Notes under the pieces: generated by a model
What the model was told of the DNA's origin: nothing
What the model saw: only the letters and a program-made list of their open reading frames with translations
Database searches by the model: none
Position numbers and translations under genes: made by a program
In this document: piece by piece, positions 52,377 through 60,771 of the stretch
Numbering within the stretch: position 1 is the stretch's first letter
Layout: each line of letters opens with the position of its first letter
DNA from: Anaerolineaceae bacterium
GTDB taxonomy: Bacteria > Chloroflexota > Anaerolineae > Anaerolineales > Anaerolineaceae
NCBI GenBank assembly: GCA_018056725.1
Contig: JAGPFF010000004.1
Span: forward strand, 1-64,000
Length of the DNA stretch: 64,000 bases
Direction of reading: 5' to 3'

Positions 52377-53843
52377 ATGGCAAAAATAGACCTGAGGATA
52401 GACAAAGCACGGCGGGAGCACGCAATTGCACAACTGCGCGAGCGAAAAATTATTCTGCCCACCTTTGCCCAAATGAAAGATCCGAGCAAGATTCCACCAA
52501 AAATAAAAGAGGAATTATCCACAATTGGTTTATGGGATGTTCATCCGCGCAATCTTTACCGTATCACCTGGAAAAATCAACCGCAAACCACTGGTGGAGG
52601 TTTTGACGGGGTTAATTATGTCGAATTTCCCTCCAGTTTGACTGGTACCAAAGCAAGAATTATTGCTCTGGTTGGCAAGTGGTTTCCGACAGGAGCTCAC
52701 AAAGTAGGTGCAGCCTATGGGTGTCTGGTGCCACGGCTGGTGACTGGTCAGTTTGATCCCACAACACAGAAGGCAGTCTGGCCTTCCACTGGGAATTATT
52801 GCCGCGGCGGTGCGTATGATTCTGCGCTTTTGGGCTGCGAGTCGATCGCCATCCTTCCGGAGGGAATGTCGAAGGAGCGGTTTGCCTGGTTGAGCCGGAT
52901 TGCCGGCGAGGTGATCGCTACACCCGGCTCGGAATCCAATGTCAAAGAGATTTTTGATAAATGCAAGGAATTAAGAGCCTCTGGTGAGGATTTGATGATC
53001 TTCAACCAGTTCGAAGAATTTGGTAATTATCTTTGGCATTACGAAGTGACCGGGCATGCCATGCAGGAAGTGCTTCAGGCAGTCAGTAGACCGGGAGATC
53101 ATTATCGTGGCGTGGCGCTGACAACAGGTTCTGCTGGCACCATCGCCTGTGGTGATTATCTGAAGCAGGAATACCCAACCAGCAAGATTATTGCCAGCGA
53201 AGCTCTCCAATGTCCAACCTTGCTTGAAAATGGTTTTGGCGCTCATCGTATTGAGGGGATTGGTGATAAGCATGTGCCATGGATTCATAATATTAAAAAT
53301 ACGGATCTGGTAGTAGCGATTGATGACAATGCCGTCGTGGAGATCATGCGGCTCTTCAACGAACCTGAAGGGCGCAAATTCCTGGTGGAACAGGGAATCC
53401 CCGAGGATTTCGTCTCACGGCTCGATTTACTGGGATATTCCGGCATTGCCAACCTGCTTTCAGCCATCAAATTTGCCAAATACTATGAGTTAGGCGAAAA
53501 CGATATTGTTCTTACCGTGCTTACGGATTCAATGGAGCTCTATTCCAGCCGTGTGGAGGAAATGCGCGCTCAATTTGGTGCCTATTCCAAAATCAATGCT
53601 TCCGCTGGTTTTGCGCGTTATCTGCAAGGTGTCAACACAGACCATTTGCTGGAGCTTACCTATGAGTCGCGTCGCCGCATCCATAATCTGAAATACTATA
53701 CCTGGGTGGAACAACAAGGGAGAACCTACGAGGAGATTCAGAACCAGTGGTATGATCCGAATTACTGGACGGAAATTCAAAATCAAGTGGAAGAAATAGA
53801 CCATTTGATTATGGAATTCAACAATCAGGTTGGGTTGCTCTAA
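52377..53843 (+). CDS. fold-type II PLP-dependent enzyme (TrpB/cysteine-synthase-like), function unknown
   Basis: This 488-residue enzyme has a PLP lysine in KWFPTGAHKVGAAYGCL (K109), the same context as TGAHKIN in TrpB. WPSTGNYCRGGAYDSALLGCESIAILPEGMSKERF follows, split here, and then GVALTTGSAGTIACGDYLKQEYP. It is longer than cysteine synthase (about 310) and TrpB (about 400). I do not know the substrate; the setting suggests elimination on an amino acid such as diaminopropionate, serine or a carbamoylated form. Start ATG 52377 (AAGGATGAG upstream); 52371 is possible. A strong hairpin follows the stop. Confidence 0.7.
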   Translation: MAKIDLRIDKARREHAIAQLRERKIILPTFAQMKDPSKIPPKIKEELSTIGLWDVHPRNLYRITWKNQPQTTGGGFDGVNYVEFPSSLTGTKARIIALVGKWFPTGAHKVGAAYGCLVPRLVTGQFDPTTQKAVWPSTGNYCRGGAYDSALLGCESIAILPEGMSKERFAWLSRIAGEVIATPGSESNVKEIFDKCKELRASGEDLMIFNQFEEFGNYLWHYEVTGHAMQEVLQAVSRPGDHYRGVALTTGSAGTIACGDYLKQEYPTSKIIASEALQCPTLLENGFGAHRIEGIGDKHVPWIHNIKNTDLVVAIDDNAVVEIMRLFNEPEGRKFLVEQGIPEDFVSRLDLLGYSGIANLLSAIKFAKYYELGENDIVLTVLTDSMELYSSRVEEMRAQFGAYSKINASAGFARYLQGVNTDHLLELTYESRRRIHNLKYYTWVEQQGRTYEEIQNQWYDPNYWTEIQNQVEEIDHLIMEFNNQVGLL

Positions 53844-53851
53844 AACAACAA

Positions 53852-53888
53852 GATCCTCCTGGAAACTTTTTCCAGGAGGATCTGTTTC
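53852..53888 (+). terminator. hairpin terminator after the TrpB-like gene
   Basis: GATCCTCCTGGAAA (53852-53865) and TTTCCAGGAGGATC (53869-53882) form a perfect 14-bp stem with a 3-base loop. Only TGTTTCC follows, so termination may be partial and could let some transcription reach the hydantoinase genes. Confidence 0.75.
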
Positions 53889-53904
53889 CAAACTGGATGA
53901 AAGA

Positions 53905-54480
53905 ATGATTCTTCCGGTTGATGCCCTCGTTCTGGTGGCTTATCTACCTTCTCCCAAGGATTTTGATCTGGCTCGTTTACTCGGCTGGTATCGGATACCG
54001 CTGAAGTCTGCGCCAAAAATGATTGAAGTGGATTATTTTGCCTTTTATCAGGGCAATCGATTTGGCGAGATGCACCGTTGGAGGATAGAGTACATTGCCA
54101 AATATGAAGGTCATGAGCTCACCACTCGGGGGGTATTACTGCGGGATGAAGCCAATCATCCTCGCGCCAAAGAAGAATACTATAAAATTCAACTTGGCTC
54201 CCTGATTCAGCTGGAACAGCCCATCCTCGCAGGAACGTGGAAACGGATCACGTTTTTATACACTACAGGCGAATTATTTAACCACGCCACCATGATGAAC
54301 GATTTGAGCATTCCATCTGAAGAGCGCGAGGTTCTTTGGCAGAGTTTACGCGAGCGTTCAAAACAGGCTGCACAATATGGTTTTAATGAACCCCCCCGGC
54401 AAGAAGTAGATCCGGGGTTGTTGAAATTAATTCTTAGCTTGAACTCTGATCTACCTCAACCCGACCTCGATAATTATTAA
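53905..54480 (+). CDS. conserved-looking protein of unknown function
   Basis: This 191-residue soluble protein starts MILPVDALVLVAYLPSPKDF; the frame is open upstream into the terminator, but ATG 53905 has a GGATGAAAG site. It is rich in aromatic residues: LLGWYRIPLKSAP, DYFAFYQG, IEYIAKYEGHELTTRG and WKRITFLYTTGELFN. No enzyme, DNA-binding or membrane motif stands out. It sits between a PLP enzyme and a hydantoinase, which is the only clue to its role. Confidence 0.7.
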   Translation: MILPVDALVLVAYLPSPKDFDLARLLGWYRIPLKSAPKMIEVDYFAFYQGNRFGEMHRWRIEYIAKYEGHELTTRGVLLRDEANHPRAKEEYYKIQLGSLIQLEQPILAGTWKRITFLYTTGELFNHATMMNDLSIPSEEREVLWQSLRERSKQAAQYGFNEPPRQEVDPGLLKLILSLNSDLPQPDLDNY

Positions 54481-54557: not shown

Positions 54558-55988
54558 ATGAAAACTCTCATCAAGAACGGCGTCCTTGTTACGGAAAGCC
54601 AGGTGGAACCTGCGGATTTGCTGATTGAAGGGGAAACAATTGCCCGGATCGCGCCGAAGATTCTTACGGAATCCGACATCGAAGTGATTGACGCTGGCGG
54701 GATGTACATTTTGCCCGGTGGAATCGATGTTCATGTGCATCTTGATTTACCTATGGCAGGCACAGTCTCCAGTGATGATCATTACACTGGCACTAAAGCT
54801 GCTGCTTTTGGTGGCACCACCACTGTGATTGATTTTGTTTCTCAAGATGAGGATGACTTGTTAGAATGCGTTGCTGCCTTGCGGCACAAAGCGGATCCAA
54901 AGGTGGCGGTGGATTACGGCTTGCACATGAACATTACTCATTTAACACCACAGGTCGAAAAGCAAATTTCCCTCTTGTCTTCAGTGGGAATCACGAGCGT
55001 GAAAGTGTTCAGTGCCTATAACGGGCGGTTGCGGTTGAATGATGCTGAAATCTTAAAAGTTATGCGCGTAGCAAAAAATAATGGCTTACTCACTCTCCTT
55101 CATGCGGAGAATGGGGATATTATTGATTTATTGGTTTCGGAAGCCCTAAAAGAAGGGAACACCACCCCAATCTGGCATGCGAGAACCCGTCCGGCATGGG
55201 GTGCTGTAGAAGCGGTGCTGCGCGGTGCGGCGATCTCGAAAATAGCAGAAGCCCCGCTCTATATCGTGCATATGAATGTGGCGGGGGAAGTGGATATGGT
55301 CGAATATGCCCGCAGCAAAGGGCTCCTCCTATTTGGCGAGACCTGTCCGCAGTATCTATTCTTCACCGAAGAGGATTTGCGGCGACCGGATGGCGCGAAG
55401 TGGGTGTGTTCGCCGCCTCTCCGCACGCCCCAGGATCAAAAGAGACTTTGGGAAGGCTTAAAAGAGGGGAGCATTCAAGTTATCTCCACAGATCATTGTC
55501 CATTTTTCTTCGATGGAACTACGCCCATCGAGTATGAAGGTCGAGAAGTAATGATTGCCGGTAAAGAACTTGGTGCTGAGGATTTCACCAGGATTCCTAA
55601 TGGTTTACCAGGTGTGGGCGACCGCCTGCCCATCCTGTGGAGCTCTATGGTCAGTTCTGGTAAATTCTCTCTCAACGAGTTTGTGCGCCTTACCAGCACC
55701 AATCCGGCAAAGCTGTTCGGTCTCTACCCCAAAAAGGGGAACCTGGCACCCGGCGCGGATGCGGATATCGTCATTTGGGATCCGAAGAAAAAGGTAAAGT
55801 ACGGGAAGATCTTATCCCAGCAACGGACGGATTACAACCTTTATGAGGGTTGGGAATTGGAAGGCTTTCCAGTTCGGGTTTTTTCGCGTGGCGTGCAGAT
55901 TGTGGAGAATGGTCGCTGGATGGGCAAACCTGGAGGAGGGCGATTTATTCATCGCCAACCCTTCTTGCCGCAGGAACCGGATGCCTAA
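54558..55988 (+). CDS. hydA: dihydropyrimidinase / D-hydantoinase
   Basis: This 476-residue amidohydrolase opens cyclic ureides such as dihydropyrimidines or hydantoins (including, in related clusters, purine-derived rings). It has GGIDVHVHLD (H59, H61), a carboxylated-lysine candidate K149 in SVKVFSAYNGR, LLHAENGD, YIVHMN and STDHCPF. FGETCPQYL is typical of dihydropyrimidinases. The start at 54558 has a GAGGATT site. The stop abuts the ATG of a membrane-protein gene, so the two are coupled. Confidence 0.92.
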   Translation: MKTLIKNGVLVTESQVEPADLLIEGETIARIAPKILTESDIEVIDAGGMYILPGGIDVHVHLDLPMAGTVSSDDHYTGTKAAAFGGTTTVIDFVSQDEDDLLECVAALRHKADPKVAVDYGLHMNITHLTPQVEKQISLLSSVGITSVKVFSAYNGRLRLNDAEILKVMRVAKNNGLLTLLHAENGDIIDLLVSEALKEGNTTPIWHARTRPAWGAVEAVLRGAAISKIAEAPLYIVHMNVAGEVDMVEYARSKGLLLFGETCPQYLFFTEEDLRRPDGAKWVCSPPLRTPQDQKRLWEGLKEGSIQVISTDHCPFFFDGTTPIEYEGREVMIAGKELGAEDFTRIPNGLPGVGDRLPILWSSMVSSGKFSLNEFVRLTSTNPAKLFGLYPKKGNLAPGADADIVIWDPKKKVKYGKILSQQRTDYNLYEGWELEGFPVRVFSRGVQIVENGRWMGKPGGGRFIHRQPFLPQEPDA

Positions 55989-57590
55989 ATGGTTGTACTG
56001 ATTCCTGTCCTTGTGTTATCGCTCGGAGCTGTCCTGATTCAGGTGTTTGGGCGCCTAAATAAGCGACCCGGAACCAGCTGGCTGGTGGCTTCAATCTCGG
56101 CGTTGACAGCATGGATCGCCCTCATTCCCATTGGCATTCTCCTCCCTGGCGGGTTGATGATAGAACACTGGATTCCGGAGTATTATCCATTTTCCTCCAT
56201 CGTTTTCCAATTTACCCCGCAAAGCTGGATCCTGGGTTTTCTGATCTCAAGTCTGGCGCTGGCGGTCATATTCTCTGAAGCGAAAAACTTAAGTTCCACG
56301 GGATATATAAACCGCTTATCCAGTTCCCTATTCCTCTCCGGATTAGGAATACTGGCAGTTTCAGCTGGGTCGGAATTAACTTTCCTGTTTGCCTGGGCAC
56401 TGATGGATCTGGTTGAATTTGGGGTGCTGTCGGTCATTATTGGAAGGCAGAAAAGCCTGCCATCTGCAGCCGCTTCGATCAGTATCCGCTTTATCGGGAT
56501 TTTGGTGTTGCTCATTTTGATCATCCTGGGATCGTCAGGAGATCAGGTTATGAGGGGGGCAGATTTAACGCCGGCAATGGGATGGCTGCTGATCTTATTG
56601 ATTGCCGCCAGGATGGGAATTCTTCCATTGTTCCAGCCTTATGCCGAAGACCCTATCTATCAGCGTGGTTTGATTACCATCATTCGAGCGCTTCCTCTGA
56701 TCACTTCATTTGCGTTTATATTTTATATTTCAGGGTCAGGATCTCTGCCTGTGAAGACGGGATTGATCTTTTTCATCCTTACTGTGACCCTGATCTACGG
56801 AGCAGTCTCGTGGGTGAATGCGTCCAATGAATTAAAAGGAAGACCTTACTGGAATTTGAGTATTGCTGCAATGGGTTTACTCGTTTTTCTCACCGACCAC
56901 ACCTCCGCCTTGACTGGACTGGCGATCCTGCAAATCGCGACAGGTTCAGCTTTGTTCCTCTACTCCCCGAGGTTCAAGAAACCGCTGCCTTTCTTATTTC
57001 TGTTGATTCTGGGTTTGCTGCCTTTTCCGTTTAGCCCGGCTTCACCCATCACAACGTTTTTTACTGCAGAGCGCGTGAATCTGGTCACAGTCATCTGGCT
57101 TGTGGCTTATGTGCTCTTGCTTTGTGGGGTCATCAAGCATTCTCTGCGAAAGGATGAATCGTCGATCCCGATTGAACCCTGGATGGGGCTCTTCCATGCC
57201 ATCGCCTTGTTCTTGCTTGTGCTGGCACCTTTGCTGGTGGTGCTTATCCAGTTTCAGACGCTTCAATTACGCCCGGCATTGTGGTCCTGGCTTACCATCA
57301 CCGGGTTGGTAATCCTGCTAAGCCTGTTCACCCTGCGTTTCGTTCACCTGGGGTCCTCTATTCAGAATCGGTTCATGCGAACCAAAAAGGTGTTCACTAC
57401 CAGTATTCATTATTTGGAAGTTGTGCTGAATCTCTCCTGGCTTGGTAAATTGATCTCCTCGCTGGGTTTTATCATTGAAAAAATAGTCCAGTTGCTCTCT
57501 CGGGTGCTTGAAGGGGAAGGGGGTATCTTGTGGTCCTTTCTCTTCATCATATTATTCCTATCGTTGATCTTTACTCGTCAGGTGCCATAA
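55989..57590 (+). CDS. divergent complex-I-like membrane protein (NuoL/M/N family)
   Basis: This 533-residue protein has about 14 membrane segments and looks like an antiporter-type subunit of complex I or hydrogenases: FLFAWALMDLVEFGVL aligns with the FFxWELM of TM5, and LLIAARMGILPLFQP with the lysine helix before HTWLPDA. In both places the key residues are changed: the TM5 Glu is Ala and the TM7 Lys is Arg. Proton pumping in the usual way is therefore doubtful. It starts directly after the hydA stop and overlaps the next gene by one base. Confidence 0.6.
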   Translation: MVVLIPVLVLSLGAVLIQVFGRLNKRPGTSWLVASISALTAWIALIPIGILLPGGLMIEHWIPEYYPFSSIVFQFTPQSWILGFLISSLALAVIFSEAKNLSSTGYINRLSSSLFLSGLGILAVSAGSELTFLFAWALMDLVEFGVLSVIIGRQKSLPSAAASISIRFIGILVLLILIILGSSGDQVMRGADLTPAMGWLLILLIAARMGILPLFQPYAEDPIYQRGLITIIRALPLITSFAFIFYISGSGSLPVKTGLIFFILTVTLIYGAVSWVNASNELKGRPYWNLSIAAMGLLVFLTDHTSALTGLAILQIATGSALFLYSPRFKKPLPFLFLLILGLLPFPFSPASPITTFFTAERVNLVTVIWLVAYVLLLCGVIKHSLRKDESSIPIEPWMGLFHAIALFLLVLAPLLVVLIQFQTLQLRPALWSWLTITGLVILLSLFTLRFVHLGSSIQNRFMRTKKVFTTSIHYLEVVLNLSWLGKLISSLGFIIEKIVQLLSRVLEGEGGILWSFLFIILFLSLIFTRQVP

Positions 57591-58168
57591 TGCAGCACTG
57601 GGTGAATTACTTAAGTATCGGCATGATTGAGATTGCCCTCTTCTGGTTGATTCTTTCAAGTTCCAGAAAATCTATTATTTACGCTTTTAGTACCATTCTA
57701 ATATTGGTATTTTCCATAAACTTACAGTTTTGGACCTTCGGATTCGCAGTCACTAAACTCATTACAGGCATCATGGCGATGCTGCTCCTGCTGATCACCC
57801 CTGCGGAGGAAACCCTGCCCGCTGGTGGGGTGGGAATTGGAAGAATCTTTCGGGCGCTCAGCCTGGGAATGGGAATTTTGCTCATCTTTTCCACCCTTGC
57901 AAGTACGACGCAATTCCTCTCCCTCACAATTGACCAAACCTTGCCTAGCCTGACGATTCTTTGGTGCGGTTTTCTCTTGATCGCATTTTCAAAAGATCCT
58001 TTCCGGATCATCCTTGGTTTATTAACCCTTCTAACGGGTTTCGAAATCATCTATGGCTCCGTTGAACGATCATTATTGATTAATGCATTATTAACCGCGG
58101 TTTACTTGCTGATCGCAGTGATTGGTTCTTATTTAATGATGCCTGCATCCTCCGAGGATAAATCGTGA
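57590..58168 (+). CDS. small membrane protein, HyfE/NuoK-like
   Basis: This 192-residue protein has about six membrane helices and no soluble domain. By size and by its place between two NuoL/N-like genes it resembles hydrogenase-4 subunit E (HyfE) or a NuoK-like subunit. The pattern FRIILGLLTLLTGFEIIYGSVERSLLINALL includes a Glu in a helix, as NuoK does. The ATG at 57590 overlaps the previous stop (TAATG), and the 3' end overlaps the next start by 4 bases (GTGA). Confidence 0.5.
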   Translation: MQHWVNYLSIGMIEIALFWLILSSSRKSIIYAFSTILILVFSINLQFWTFGFAVTKLITGIMAMLLLLITPAEETLPAGGVGIGRIFRALSLGMGILLIFSTLASTTQFLSLTIDQTLPSLTILWCGFLLIAFSKDPFRIILGLLTLLTGFEIIYGSVERSLLINALLTAVYLLIAVIGSYLMMPASSEDKS

Positions 58169-59559
58169 GCGCGCCTCTTATATGGATTATCCTCCCCCTG
58201 GCAATATCCGCCATTTTGCTCGCCTTGTTGAAATATGACAGGGTGATCAGGTGGATGGGTCTGCTTACTAGCGGATTGCTTTCTTTGATCGCCTTCTTTC
58301 AACCGGTAGGGAGTGTGCTCCAAATTGGTGGCATCTCGATCGATTTCACTTCCTCCTTTTACATTTTTGGGCGCTCTTTTTCCCTGGATAATTCCGACCG
58401 CTTTGTGATACTCATCGTGTACATGACAATTTTTTTCTTTTTGTTATTAATGGATCGCGAGTTTGTTCCCACTAAATTTGTACCACTTTCGTTTGCGATC
58501 GCTGCTTTCCTTCTTTCAGCCTTAGCCGTACAGCCCTTCTTGTATTCGGCTGTTTTGGTTGAACTTGCCGTACTGTTGATGATCCTTATGGTGAGGGAGA
58601 AAGGTGATCAGCCTGTCGTTGGCATACTGCGATTCTTAATCTATCTTTCTCTTGCTTTACCCTGTATATTATTTGCCGGTTGGATTTTAGGCGGTGCTCA
58701 AGCCAGTACATCGGATGAGACCCGCCTCACTGCTGCAGCAATTTTTTTGCTTGTAGGTTTTTCCATCTGGCTGGCAGTTTTTCCATTTCATTCCTGGTTG
58801 CCCCAATTCGCGGCTACTGTTCATCCATTCTTGTTTGGTTTTCTTTTCTCGATCTTGCCGGTTGTTTTGCTGTTGGTAATCGTGGATTATCTATCCAGTT
58901 TGATCTGGCTACGGTCAGCCACCTATCTTTCACCAGCTTTGATGACAATCGGTGCCATAATGGTGGTCACCGCTGGCATATTTTCCTCAGTAGAAAAGCA
59001 GATTGCGAGGCTTGCATCCTATACAGTACTGCTTGAAACAGGTTTTGCTCTCTTCATGATCGCCCTGCGCTCTGACCAGGGAATGTCGCTGCTCTACCAA
59101 TCCTTTATTCCCCGAATTATCGGTCTGTCCCTTCTGTGTTACTCATTGTCCATCTTGCGTCAAAATCAAATCTCGCTCGTCAAAGGGGGGGTAACCTCCC
59201 TAATTCGGCAATTTCCATTTGCCACACTGGGGATTCTGGGATCGATGCTCTCCATTGCGGGGTTTCCACTCCTGGCAGCTTTTCCGGTACGGCTTCAATT
59301 GTTGCACCTCATTGGTCGGACCTCCCTGCCAGCATTGATTGCACTTGCAGCAGGCATGGCGGGATTTTTGATCGCTACGGTGCGTTTGTTCGTTCTCATG
59401 ACCTTTCCTGCCAGACAAAAATGGCATCTTCGGGAGCGTCCTCCCCAAGTGATCGTTCTTTGCATCGGACTCCTCCTTTTGGTCGTCATGGGATTATTCC
59501 CTTCAATCCCTGCAGATATGATTTCATTGCTGGCAATTGACTTGCCGATATTATGGTAA
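58165..59559 (+). CDS. divergent NuoN/HyfF-like membrane protein (GTG start)
   Basis: This 464-residue protein has about 13 membrane helices. The conserved loop VFPFHSWLPQFAATVHPF marks the proton-conducting transporter family, and VLVELAVLLMILM keeps the TM5 glutamate. The preceding helix reads GFSIWLAVFPF where NuoN-like proteins carry a lysine (GFxxKxxxxPF), so the TM7 lysine is Trp. The start GTG overlaps the previous gene. With its two neighbours it forms a unit without any hydrogenase or NADH-dehydrogenase catalytic subunit nearby. Confidence 0.65.
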   Translation: MSAPLIWIILPLAISAILLALLKYDRVIRWMGLLTSGLLSLIAFFQPVGSVLQIGGISIDFTSSFYIFGRSFSLDNSDRFVILIVYMTIFFFLLLMDREFVPTKFVPLSFAIAAFLLSALAVQPFLYSAVLVELAVLLMILMVREKGDQPVVGILRFLIYLSLALPCILFAGWILGGAQASTSDETRLTAAAIFLLVGFSIWLAVFPFHSWLPQFAATVHPFLFGFLFSILPVVLLLVIVDYLSSLIWLRSATYLSPALMTIGAIMVVTAGIFSSVEKQIARLASYTVLLETGFALFMIALRSDQGMSLLYQSFIPRIIGLSLLCYSLSILRQNQISLVKGGVTSLIRQFPFATLGILGSMLSIAGFPLLAAFPVRLQLLHLIGRTSLPALIALAAGMAGFLIATVRLFVLMTFPARQKWHLRERPPQVIVLCIGLLLLVVMGLFPSIPADMISLLAIDLPILW

Positions 59560-59592: not shown

Positions 59593-60771
59593 ATGGAAAA
59601 TGATGAAATCTTGAAGCGATTAGAATTTCAGGACGCGGAGCGGCGTAAGGATAAACAGACAATTAATGATCTTCTTGCTCAGGTAGCGACTCTACAGGAA
59701 ACCATTAATGCCCAAAAGCGGGAGATCACCCATCTCAGTGTGGAAAATAAAAAAAGTGCCACGCTTTACGTACGGGTGGAAGAATATGAAGAAGCCCTGG
59801 CGAAATTGAAGGCTGAACTTGTCAAACCAGCTGCTGATTTAGATAAAAAAATCGCCCTACTGGAAAAAGAGATTGAAAGCCAAAGAGCGGAAGATATGAG
59901 TGTGATCAATCGCCGCCTGCTTGAACTGCAAAATGAGATTAAACCAATTAACGAATTGAAAAATGATATCCAGACCAAACTTGGTGATGACTTTCACCTG
60001 AGTCAGCGGATTGAGGAACTTGCGAAACAATTTCCTGAATTAAGGCAAAAAGATGAGGAATTACTCCGCGCGATCAAACTTTCTGATGATCATGATCGTA
60101 TTGAAGCCAAACGAGTATCCGATCTGGCGATTGAACTGACAACAATCCGCAAGAAGATTGACGATGAAAAGATTGCCTCCGATTCTCAGAAAGAATACCT
60201 GAAAAAACTTGAAGCTTTGATCAATGACCTGCAGAATCGAGAGCAACAGCGCATTCAGGAGCAGATTGCCTTCATCGAAACTCAGTCCAGGCAGACAATT
60301 GACCGGGAAGGTTTTATCAAGGATTGGCAGGAAAAGAAGGATCAGTTGCAGGCATTAAGTGCTTCGCTTCAGGCACAGATGCTCGATTTGCAAGGTTTGA
60401 ACCGGACGATTAAAGAAGCGCAGGCAGAGTTTGATGAATTAAATCAGCGATTAGAACGGCGATTGAACGAAATATCTGAAATGAATCGTTTACAGGAAGA
60501 ACGCTTGCGGCAGGAATGGATTTCCTTTAAAGCGGATGACCAGAAACGATGGTCCAATTACTCACTCAACCAGGAAGAGATGATTCGAGAGAAAGACCGC
60601 GAAATGACGAAAGTAATTGAGCGGCTTACTAAACTTGAGGACACTTCCCTTCAAATTGTGGATTCCGTTCAGATTATTAACGAAGAAACAGAAAAACGAG
60701 TGCGCACGCTGCTTGTGATGGCTAATGAGATCATGAGCTCGTTTGAGCGCTCGATCGGCAAAAAAGGCTGA
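59593..60771 (+). CDS. long coiled-coil protein
   Basis: This 392-residue protein is almost entirely charged and alpha-helical, with heptad-like runs (KQTINDLLAQVATLQETINA, KKIALLEKEIESQRAEDM, DELNQRLERRLNEISEMNRL). There is no membrane helix, signal or enzyme motif. It resembles a cytoplasmic filament or tether, such as a DivIVA- or SMC-like rod. It lies between a NuoN-like gene and selB, 3 bases from the latter, so it is probably in the same operon. Function unknown. Confidence 0.7.
   Translation: MENDEILKRLEFQDAERRKDKQTINDLLAQVATLQETINAQKREITHLSVENKKSATLYVRVEEYEEALAKLKAELVKPAADLDKKIALLEKEIESQRAEDMSVINRRLLELQNEIKPINELKNDIQTKLGDDFHLSQRIEELAKQFPELRQKDEELLRAIKLSDDHDRIEAKRVSDLAIELTTIRKKIDDEKIASDSQKEYLKKLEALINDLQNREQQRIQEQIAFIETQSRQTIDREGFIKDWQEKKDQLQALSASLQAQMLDLQGLNRTIKEAQAEFDELNQRLERRLNEISEMNRLQEERLRQEWISFKADDQKRWSNYSLNQEEMIREKDREMTKVIERLTKLEDTSLQIVDSVQIINEETEKRVRTLLVMANEIMSSFERSIGKKG

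Follow-up and report, generated by a model that had tools for sequence, protein, structure and literature searches.

What might three complex I-like membrane proteins do when residues expected in their proton channels have been replaced and no redox enzyme is encoded beside them? This question is raised by three consecutive genes, here called g1, g2 and g3 and together the trio, on a 64,000-nucleotide stretch of an Anaerolineaceae genome (contig JAGPFF010000004.1, positions 1 to 64,000; hereafter the window). An earlier reading of the letters alone, to which we refer as the original prediction, had described them as either a degenerate membrane scaffold or an ion-handling module tied to a soluble redox enzyme whose gene lies elsewhere, and as coupled to a hydantoinase. 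Having followed the trio through related genomes, we tentatively favour, at a little under even confidence, another account, in which it is an ancestral membrane arm resembling that of energy-converting hydrogenase-related (Ehr) complexes and group 4 [NiFe] hydrogenases, which was orphaned in the Anaerolineae, had its charges rewired and most likely moves ions independently of redox chemistry.

A conserved operon with replaced membrane charges

Sequence searches with the g1 protein of the window returned no informative Pfam or PDB match. Its AlphaFold2 model (predicted local distance difference test score, pLDDT, of 86.4) aligned, among the matches listed, with ND5, NuoL, NuoM and MrpD at VIA-align Z scores of 30.5–33.4 and root-mean-square deviations of 3.2–8.3 over about 390–520 residues. 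In addition, a search of the PDB set with a class-wide g1 profile built from 34 members gave matches to MrpA (1.7e-15) and ND5 (2.3e-15), and four of the 34 aligned members matched PF00361 at E <= 0.1 (best 1.1e-10). On the basis of this predicted fold and of the profile matches, g1 is a homologue of NuoL/MrpA-type subunits. In the case of g3, PF00361 was matched directly (E 6.8e-8), the score of 32.5 bits lying above the curated cut-off of 21.5. A profile built from 22 family members matched both E. coli NuoN (2.1e-26) and subunit M of NADH dehydrogenase (1.7e-29), and hhalign aligned g3 with NuoN at a probability of 99.5. The complex I-like nature originally ascribed to the membrane proteins was thus confirmed, for g1 by fold and profile and for g3 by PF00361.

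The g2 protein of the window had no informative Pfam match. AlphaFold2 predicts seven helices (pLDDT 90.4), and a fold search returned Z scores of at most 7.4, NdhE scoring 5.7, and its top rows included designed proteins and helical bundles. At the level of sequence, the NCBIfam NuoK model was matched by the window g2 at E 0.0053 and by 3 of 69 g2 proteins (best 9.5e-5), and a class-wide g2 profile matched PDB chain 6cfw_D (‘MBH subunit’; E 8e-4), which we take to be the MbhD chain. Comparisons with NuoK, MrpC and NuoJ by hhalign were weak (global probability 10 for NuoJ, no match for NuoK or MrpC), and the g2 profile also matched inside MrpA-like frames of about 1000 amino acids. The idea that g2 is a duplicated NuoK was rejected when its two halves failed to align (hhalign probability 1.1).

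The trio spans the class Anaerolineae and other Chloroflexota classes. When the g3 protein was searched against 61 relatives, 58 gave a match, of which 55 are true family members by our own count (E < 1e-15) and three are weak Nuo/Mrp-type cross-hits; the other three gave none. Counts for g1 depend on the profile used: a narrow profile matched 32 of 150 class genomes and 38 of 301 phylum genomes (10 of the latter being NuoL cross-hits), and the class-wide profile matched 137 of 150 class genomes, among which a hand count gave about 87 g1-type proteins of full length and about 12 that were partial, once frames of 720–1000 amino acids had been excluded as NuoL/MrpA cross-hits. The g2 profile matched 81 of 301 phylum genomes, many of them outside Anaerolineae. 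Among 40 class-level loci fetched, 38 contained g1, in a full tandem trio (26), with g3 only (2), with g2 only (3) or alone (7), while a recognisable g1-g2-g3 arrangement was present at 10 of the 14 loci fetched from outside the class. In a separate survey of neighbours, a clean trio was recognised at 36 of 41 and 70 of 80 loci from the order Anaerolineales and at 7 of 20 class loci. Two other order-level loci examined (L055 and L065) had no g3 anchor. The trio recurs throughout the order far beyond chance, the outcome of a look at other genomes that had been proposed with the original prediction.

Residues were compared in a set of 121 g1 and 123 g3 proteins, the majority from the order and the remainder from the wider class, and in a class-level set of 38 g1 and 28 g3 sequences (positions in Table 1). 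By profile alignment, the transmembrane helix 5 (TM5) glutamate of NuoL is replaced by Ala137 in g1, as had been predicted, and glutamate is not among the seven commonest residues in this column, which cover 118 of the 121 homologues. At position 140, aspartate is found in 120 of 121 sequences and glutamate in the other (class level: Asp in 29 and Glu in 6 of 38). The alignments likewise upheld the exchange of the TM7 lysine for arginine in g1 (Arg208) and for tryptophan in g3 (Trp202). Arg208 is present in 120 of 121 g1 sequences and in 34 of 38 at class level; Arg233 is present in 93 of 120 and is not kept at class level; and the TM12 lysine is also gone from g1. Towards the C-terminus of g1, E508 is found in 114 of 121 sequences and W515 in every one (121/121; class level 38/38). 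In g3, the TM5 glutamate at position 133 is kept in 108 of 123 sequences, with only 6 of 28 retaining it in the class-level set; position 202 is mostly Leu (71) or Trp (45 of 123); the TM8 lysine position is Pro in 94 of 123; position 291 is acidic (Glu in 96 and Asp in 12 of 123; class level Asp in 20 and Glu in 1 of 28); and position 376 is Arg in 89, His in 13 and Lys in 12 of 123. The canonical pumping signature, with TM5 glutamate and TM7 lysine in place, is accordingly absent from both g1 (A137, R208) and g3 (W202). A lysine-to-arginine passage in PMC3046159 concerns other lysines and was not used.

Since the replacement charges are near-invariant and the operon is retained across order and class, these substitutions are not decay, and the description of the trio as degenerate was not supported. 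This bears on the main rival to our account, namely that the ion path has been lost and that the proteins now form a structural platform without transport, for example in membrane organisation or lipid handling. The loss of the TM7 and TM8 lysines from g3 and of the TM5 glutamate and TM12 lysine from g1 speaks for such a scaffold, as does the fast sequence drift, identity to the window proteins being 19–57%. However, the intramembrane charges have been swapped for other near-invariant charges (D140, R208, E/D291 and R376), which would be unexpected along a purely hydrophobic axis, and we consider a scaffold of this kind rather unlikely.

Relation to complex I and redox enzymes

Searches of the 64-kb window for NuoB-, NuoCD-, NuoI- and NuoH-like genes found none, the sole match up to E 1 being at E 0.93. 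Thus, the observation that no catalytic NADH dehydrogenase or hydrogenase subunit lies nearby held within the whole window, and the NuoB, C/D, H and I subunits that would mark a complex I are not encoded alongside the trio. The trio stands INDEPENDENCE from complex I: the nuo genes of the same genome, named from gene order, length and family searches, lie on other contigs as NuoA-H-J (C28), NuoK-L-M-M (C40) and NuoB-CD-I (C32). The complex I of this genome is itself split over separate loci (L236, L237 and L279, respectively), with two NuoM-type genes in succession.

When seven genomes were tested with PF00361, g3 was the sole match in four of them, G008, G029, G030 and G031, which are 89%, 95%, 94% and 99% complete, the last being a single contig. 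None of the four yielded a match to PF00146 (NuoH). PF00346 (NuoD) was also unmatched in G029, G030 and G031, but is present in G008 as a NuoCD fusion; for this reason G008 was set aside, and the argument that follows rests on G029–G031, which are Anaerolineaceae genomes of 94–99% completeness. With g3 as the only PF00361 protein and NuoH and NuoD undetected there, neither a complex I nor an Mrp antiporter nor a standard redox arm is required in these genomes, and in some Anaerolineae the trio probably works without the usual electron-transfer enzyme.

How does this sit with the proposal that the trio works in the membrane as partner to a soluble redox enzyme whose genes lie elsewhere, such as that of a NuoB-NuoCD-NuoI cluster? 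Some observations speak for it. Such a cluster lies apart from the membrane genes both in the trio's own genome (L279) and in G008 (L280), where no other membrane arm was detected; in G187 (L169/L283) a NuoB-NuoCD-NuoI-ApbC-like cluster is arranged head-to-head with the trio, its NuoCD frame carrying a stop or frameshift; and in other classes a NuoD-like gene adjoins the trio. Against this, the NuoB-CD-I cluster of the trio's own genome complements the NuoA-H-J and NuoK-L-M-M arms, and so most likely serves complex I, G008 is just 89% complete, and G029, G030 and G031 keep the trio without a PF00346 or PF00146 match. As an explanation of the trio, a soluble partner encoded elsewhere therefore seems improbable.

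A possible origin of the trio is suggested by the 14 loci fetched from Chloroflexota classes other than Anaerolineae. Six of these (L259–L262, L267 and L268) have a gene encoding 359–369 amino acids directly upstream of g1, and the five that were scanned matched PF00346 at 1e-30 to 6e-48. [NiFe] hydrogenase large subunits carry two CxxC motifs, one near each end, and the same pair is found in four of the six NuoD-like proteins. Four retain the N-terminal motif and two have it altered, which may represent a series of decay. At L267 there is an additional NuoB-like gene (PF01058, 9.8e-8), and several of the other-class loci have, 3' of the trio, a candidate NuoH-like gene, k5, of about 272 amino acids (hhalign probability 12.9, E 0.002), which gave no Pfam match and whose NuoH identity is unproven. 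The g1 proteins of L265 and L267 retain the canonical TM5 glutamate and TM7 lysine, and g3 at the loci with a NuoD-like gene has arginine at the TM7 lysine position. Neither in the window nor at the Anaerolineales loci searched was a NuoD-like gene found beside the trio. Since a NuoD-like catalytic gene adjoins the trio in other classes, the redox link is probably ancestral, and the simplest reading is that an Ehr/group-4-type complex shed its catalytic arm in the lineage leading to Anaerolineae, the alternative being an independent gain of the NuoD-like gene in the other classes. For Chloroflexus aurantiacus, a passage in PMC3150298 lists two complex I clusters by gene number and no third one.

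Known systems and a possible mechanism

Ehr complexes are described in a passage of PMC6349859 as being without Ni/Fe ligands. Both Ehr and the group 4 [NiFe] hydrogenases (Hyf, Mbh) combine Mrp-type antiporter subunits with NuoD/NuoB/NuoH-like subunits, a composition that the related trios of other classes approach with their NuoD-like gene. The order g1-g2-g3 also resembles what we take to be the order HyfB-HyfE-HyfF. The trio differs from both in that, across the window and the Anaerolineales loci searched, it has no gene for a large, small or NuoH-like subunit next to it, and in that its g3 has lost the classical TM7 and TM8 lysines. With the Mrp Na+(K+)/H+ antiporter (CPA3), it shares MrpA-N-like and MrpD-like subunits in one operon and the lack of a redox enzyme, and g2 may correspond to MrpA-C/MbhD; Mrp, with its related set of subunits, performs ion exchange, according to a passage of PMC7419157. 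However, MrpB, C, E, F and G were not seen among the scanned neighbours of the trio, no search having been aimed at the small Mrp subunits, the trio's key lysines and glutamates are replaced, and g3 stands as the sole PF00361 protein in G029–G031. The likeness to NuoL, NuoM and NuoN of complex I lies in the fold and sequence homology of g1 and g3, whereas the trio is encoded apart from its own genome's nuo genes (C28, C32 and C40) and is present where NuoH and NuoD were undetected. Finally, in the DabAB/MpsAB CO2-hydration complex, a passage of PMC13144422 describes a NuoL-like subunit that acts without redox chemistry. The trio has two PF00361-fold subunits where DabAB has one, and identity with DabAB was rejected when DabA (PF10070) was found in none of 12 genomes examined. 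By composition, then, neither DabAB nor Mrp fits the trio, and no description of a stand-alone trio of this kind was found in the open-access literature searched.

In light of these comparisons, the orphaned-arm account that we favour would run as follows. The NuoL/MrpA-N-type g1, the seven-helix g2 in the middle and the NuoN/MrpD-type g3 would assemble into one small membrane complex. Its ancestor would be the membrane arm of a complex like Ehr or a group 4 hydrogenase, which other classes still encode together with an adjoining NuoD/hydrogenase-large-subunit-like gene. In Anaerolineae, the catalytic gene would have ceased to lie beside the trio while the membrane arm was kept. Its charges would have been rewired, to Asp140–Arg208 in g1 and to Glu/Asp291 and Arg376 in g3, the classical TM7 and TM8 lysines of g3 being gone, and ions (H+ and/or a cation) would cross the membrane independently of redox chemistry, for example by exchange or gradient-driven coupling. 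Cation exchange, slow conduction and gradient-driven coupling are all possible modes.

Several observations weigh against this account. The ancestral state is deduced from few loci and no rooted tree, and the family relation of g2 is weak, being either MbhD/NuoJ-like or NuoK-like. Two families, f25 and f18, encode g1 apart from g2-g3. The searches of G029–G031 used family-model thresholds, below which very diverged NuoD or NuoH proteins could fall. That g3 E133 and g1 R233 are not conserved at class level goes partly against a single fixed mechanism. Arginine is a poor proton relay, which makes the textbook pumping route unlikely, and the exchange of the TM7 lysine for arginine in g1, with the loss of the TM7 and TM8 lysines from g3, argues against ordinary proton pumping. 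Lastly, the genes around the trio, coiled-coil and selB in Anaerolineales and mevalonate or glycosyltransferase genes elsewhere, could point to another role.

A stronger form of the orphaned-arm account, which we regard as possible if doubtful, is that the trio represents a phylum-wide, previously undescribed machine, in which a hydrogenase-type membrane arm has outlived its catalytic arm and now serves, without redox chemistry, as an ion transporter or a motor driven by a gradient, the classical lysines having given way to arginines and shifted carboxylates. The coupling between redox energy and ion movement in complex I remains a matter of debate. If this stronger form were true, the trio would be a natural experiment on the capabilities of a lone antiporter module, to be set beside laboratory dissection of single antiporter modules (for an example, see the passage in PMC11496545). 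The trio also appears to offer a natural series, running from trios with a hydrogenase-like subunit (other classes), through trios without one in genomes with complex I (most Anaerolineales examined), to trios in genomes with no detectable complex I (G029–G031), and comparing the members of this series would make the role of a membrane arm without its redox arm directly testable. The trio is a core, as yet unnamed operon of Anaerolineae, an abundant and poorly understood group.

Gene layout and neighbouring genes

Table 1. Coordinates of the trio genes and of the residues discussed, in positions of the window.
Feature	Coordinates	Strand	Description
g1	55989..57590	+	NuoL/MrpA-N-type membrane protein, 533 amino acids; many TM helices; the C-terminal part has an amphipathic stretch and a final TM helix
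g1 Ala137	56397..56399	+	NuoL TM5 Glu position, by profile alignment to NuoL
g1 Asp140	56406..56408	+	One helical turn (three residues) past the lost TM5 Glu
g1 Arg208	56610..56612	+	NuoL TM7 Lys position
g1 Arg233	56685..56687	+	NuoL TM8 His position, by alignment
g1 motif LEGEGGxLW, residues 507-515	57507..57533	+	C-terminal
g2	57590..58168	+	Seven-helix membrane protein, 192 amino acids; weak MbhD/NuoJ- or NuoK-like relation
g3	58165..59559	+	NuoN/NuoM/MrpD-type membrane protein, 464 amino acids
g3 Glu133	58561..58563	+	TM5 Glu, retained
g3 Trp202	58768..58770	+	NuoN TM7 Lys (K217) position, by alignment
g3 Glu291	59035..59037	+	NuoN His305 (TM11) position, by alignment
g3 Arg376	59290..59292	+	NuoN Lys395 (TM12) position, by alignment

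The host genome comprises 2.14 Mb in 90 contigs, with the trio on contig C54. Its nearest named relatives are Anaerolineaceae metagenome-assembled genomes and, among genera, Longilinea arvoryzae, Leptolinea, Bellilinea and Levilinea; Longilinea is assigned by NCBI to the order Anaerolineales (Chloroflexota, Anaerolineae). Two features of the layout were as first described: the stop codon of the hydantoinase gene hydA (55986–55988) is followed with zero gap by the g1 ATG at 55989, and the three membrane genes overlap one another, g1 and g2 by one base (TAATG) and g2 and g3 by four (GTGA). Of 68 named loci at which the limits of both g2 and g3 were established, 65 show an overlap of exactly four bases between them, a constancy that fits translational coupling.

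Beyond the trio itself, no neighbour is common to the whole class. At 12 class loci from six families (including L182, L256 and L258; two loci scanned, the others assigned by clustering), genes for HMG-CoA reductase, an archaeal-type HMG-CoA synthase, thiolase and an OB-fold/DUF35 protein lie directly 3' of the trio on the same strand, and glycosyltransferase-4 genes are adjacent at seven loci. Both sets of neighbours would suit a gradient-driven machine for cell-envelope or isoprenoid lipids, for example one that flips a lipid carrier. However, the neighbours differ by clade, as inherited gene order predicts, the mevalonate-gene loci falling in two separated groups of the g3 tree with moderate support; none is class-wide; and we know of no flippase with the antiporter-subunit fold of the trio. 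We accordingly hold a lipid machine to be highly improbable.

Least probable by far, to the point of being nearly dismissed, is a functional unit of trio and hydantoinase, the coupling asserted in the original prediction, for although hydA abuts g1 in the window and lies directly upstream of it at 45 of 101 order loci (22/37 and 23/64, counting here and below loci with enough flanking sequence), it is not adjacent at 56 of the 101 or at any of six class loci, and is not among the genes seen around the trio in other classes. On this distribution the hydantoinase link was rejected, and hydA is best seen as a clade-specific neighbour.

On the other side of the trio, positions 59593–60771 encode a member of a coiled-coil protein family of about 392 amino acids, which in Anaerolineales lies mostly between the trio and selB. 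The gene is found 3' of the trio at 27 of 36 and 58 of 63 order loci and at none of six class loci. Members of the family were found in 117 of 150 class genomes; in the genomes compared, the gene often lay on another contig or far from the trio, and this frequent separation, together with its absence from the six class loci, rules it out as an obligate partner. Upstream, positions 53830–54480 encode a soluble protein of 216 amino acids with no Pfam or NCBIfam match, whose gene precedes the trio at 23 of 37 and 23 of 64 order loci and directly adjoins g1 where hydA is absent (L050 and L071).

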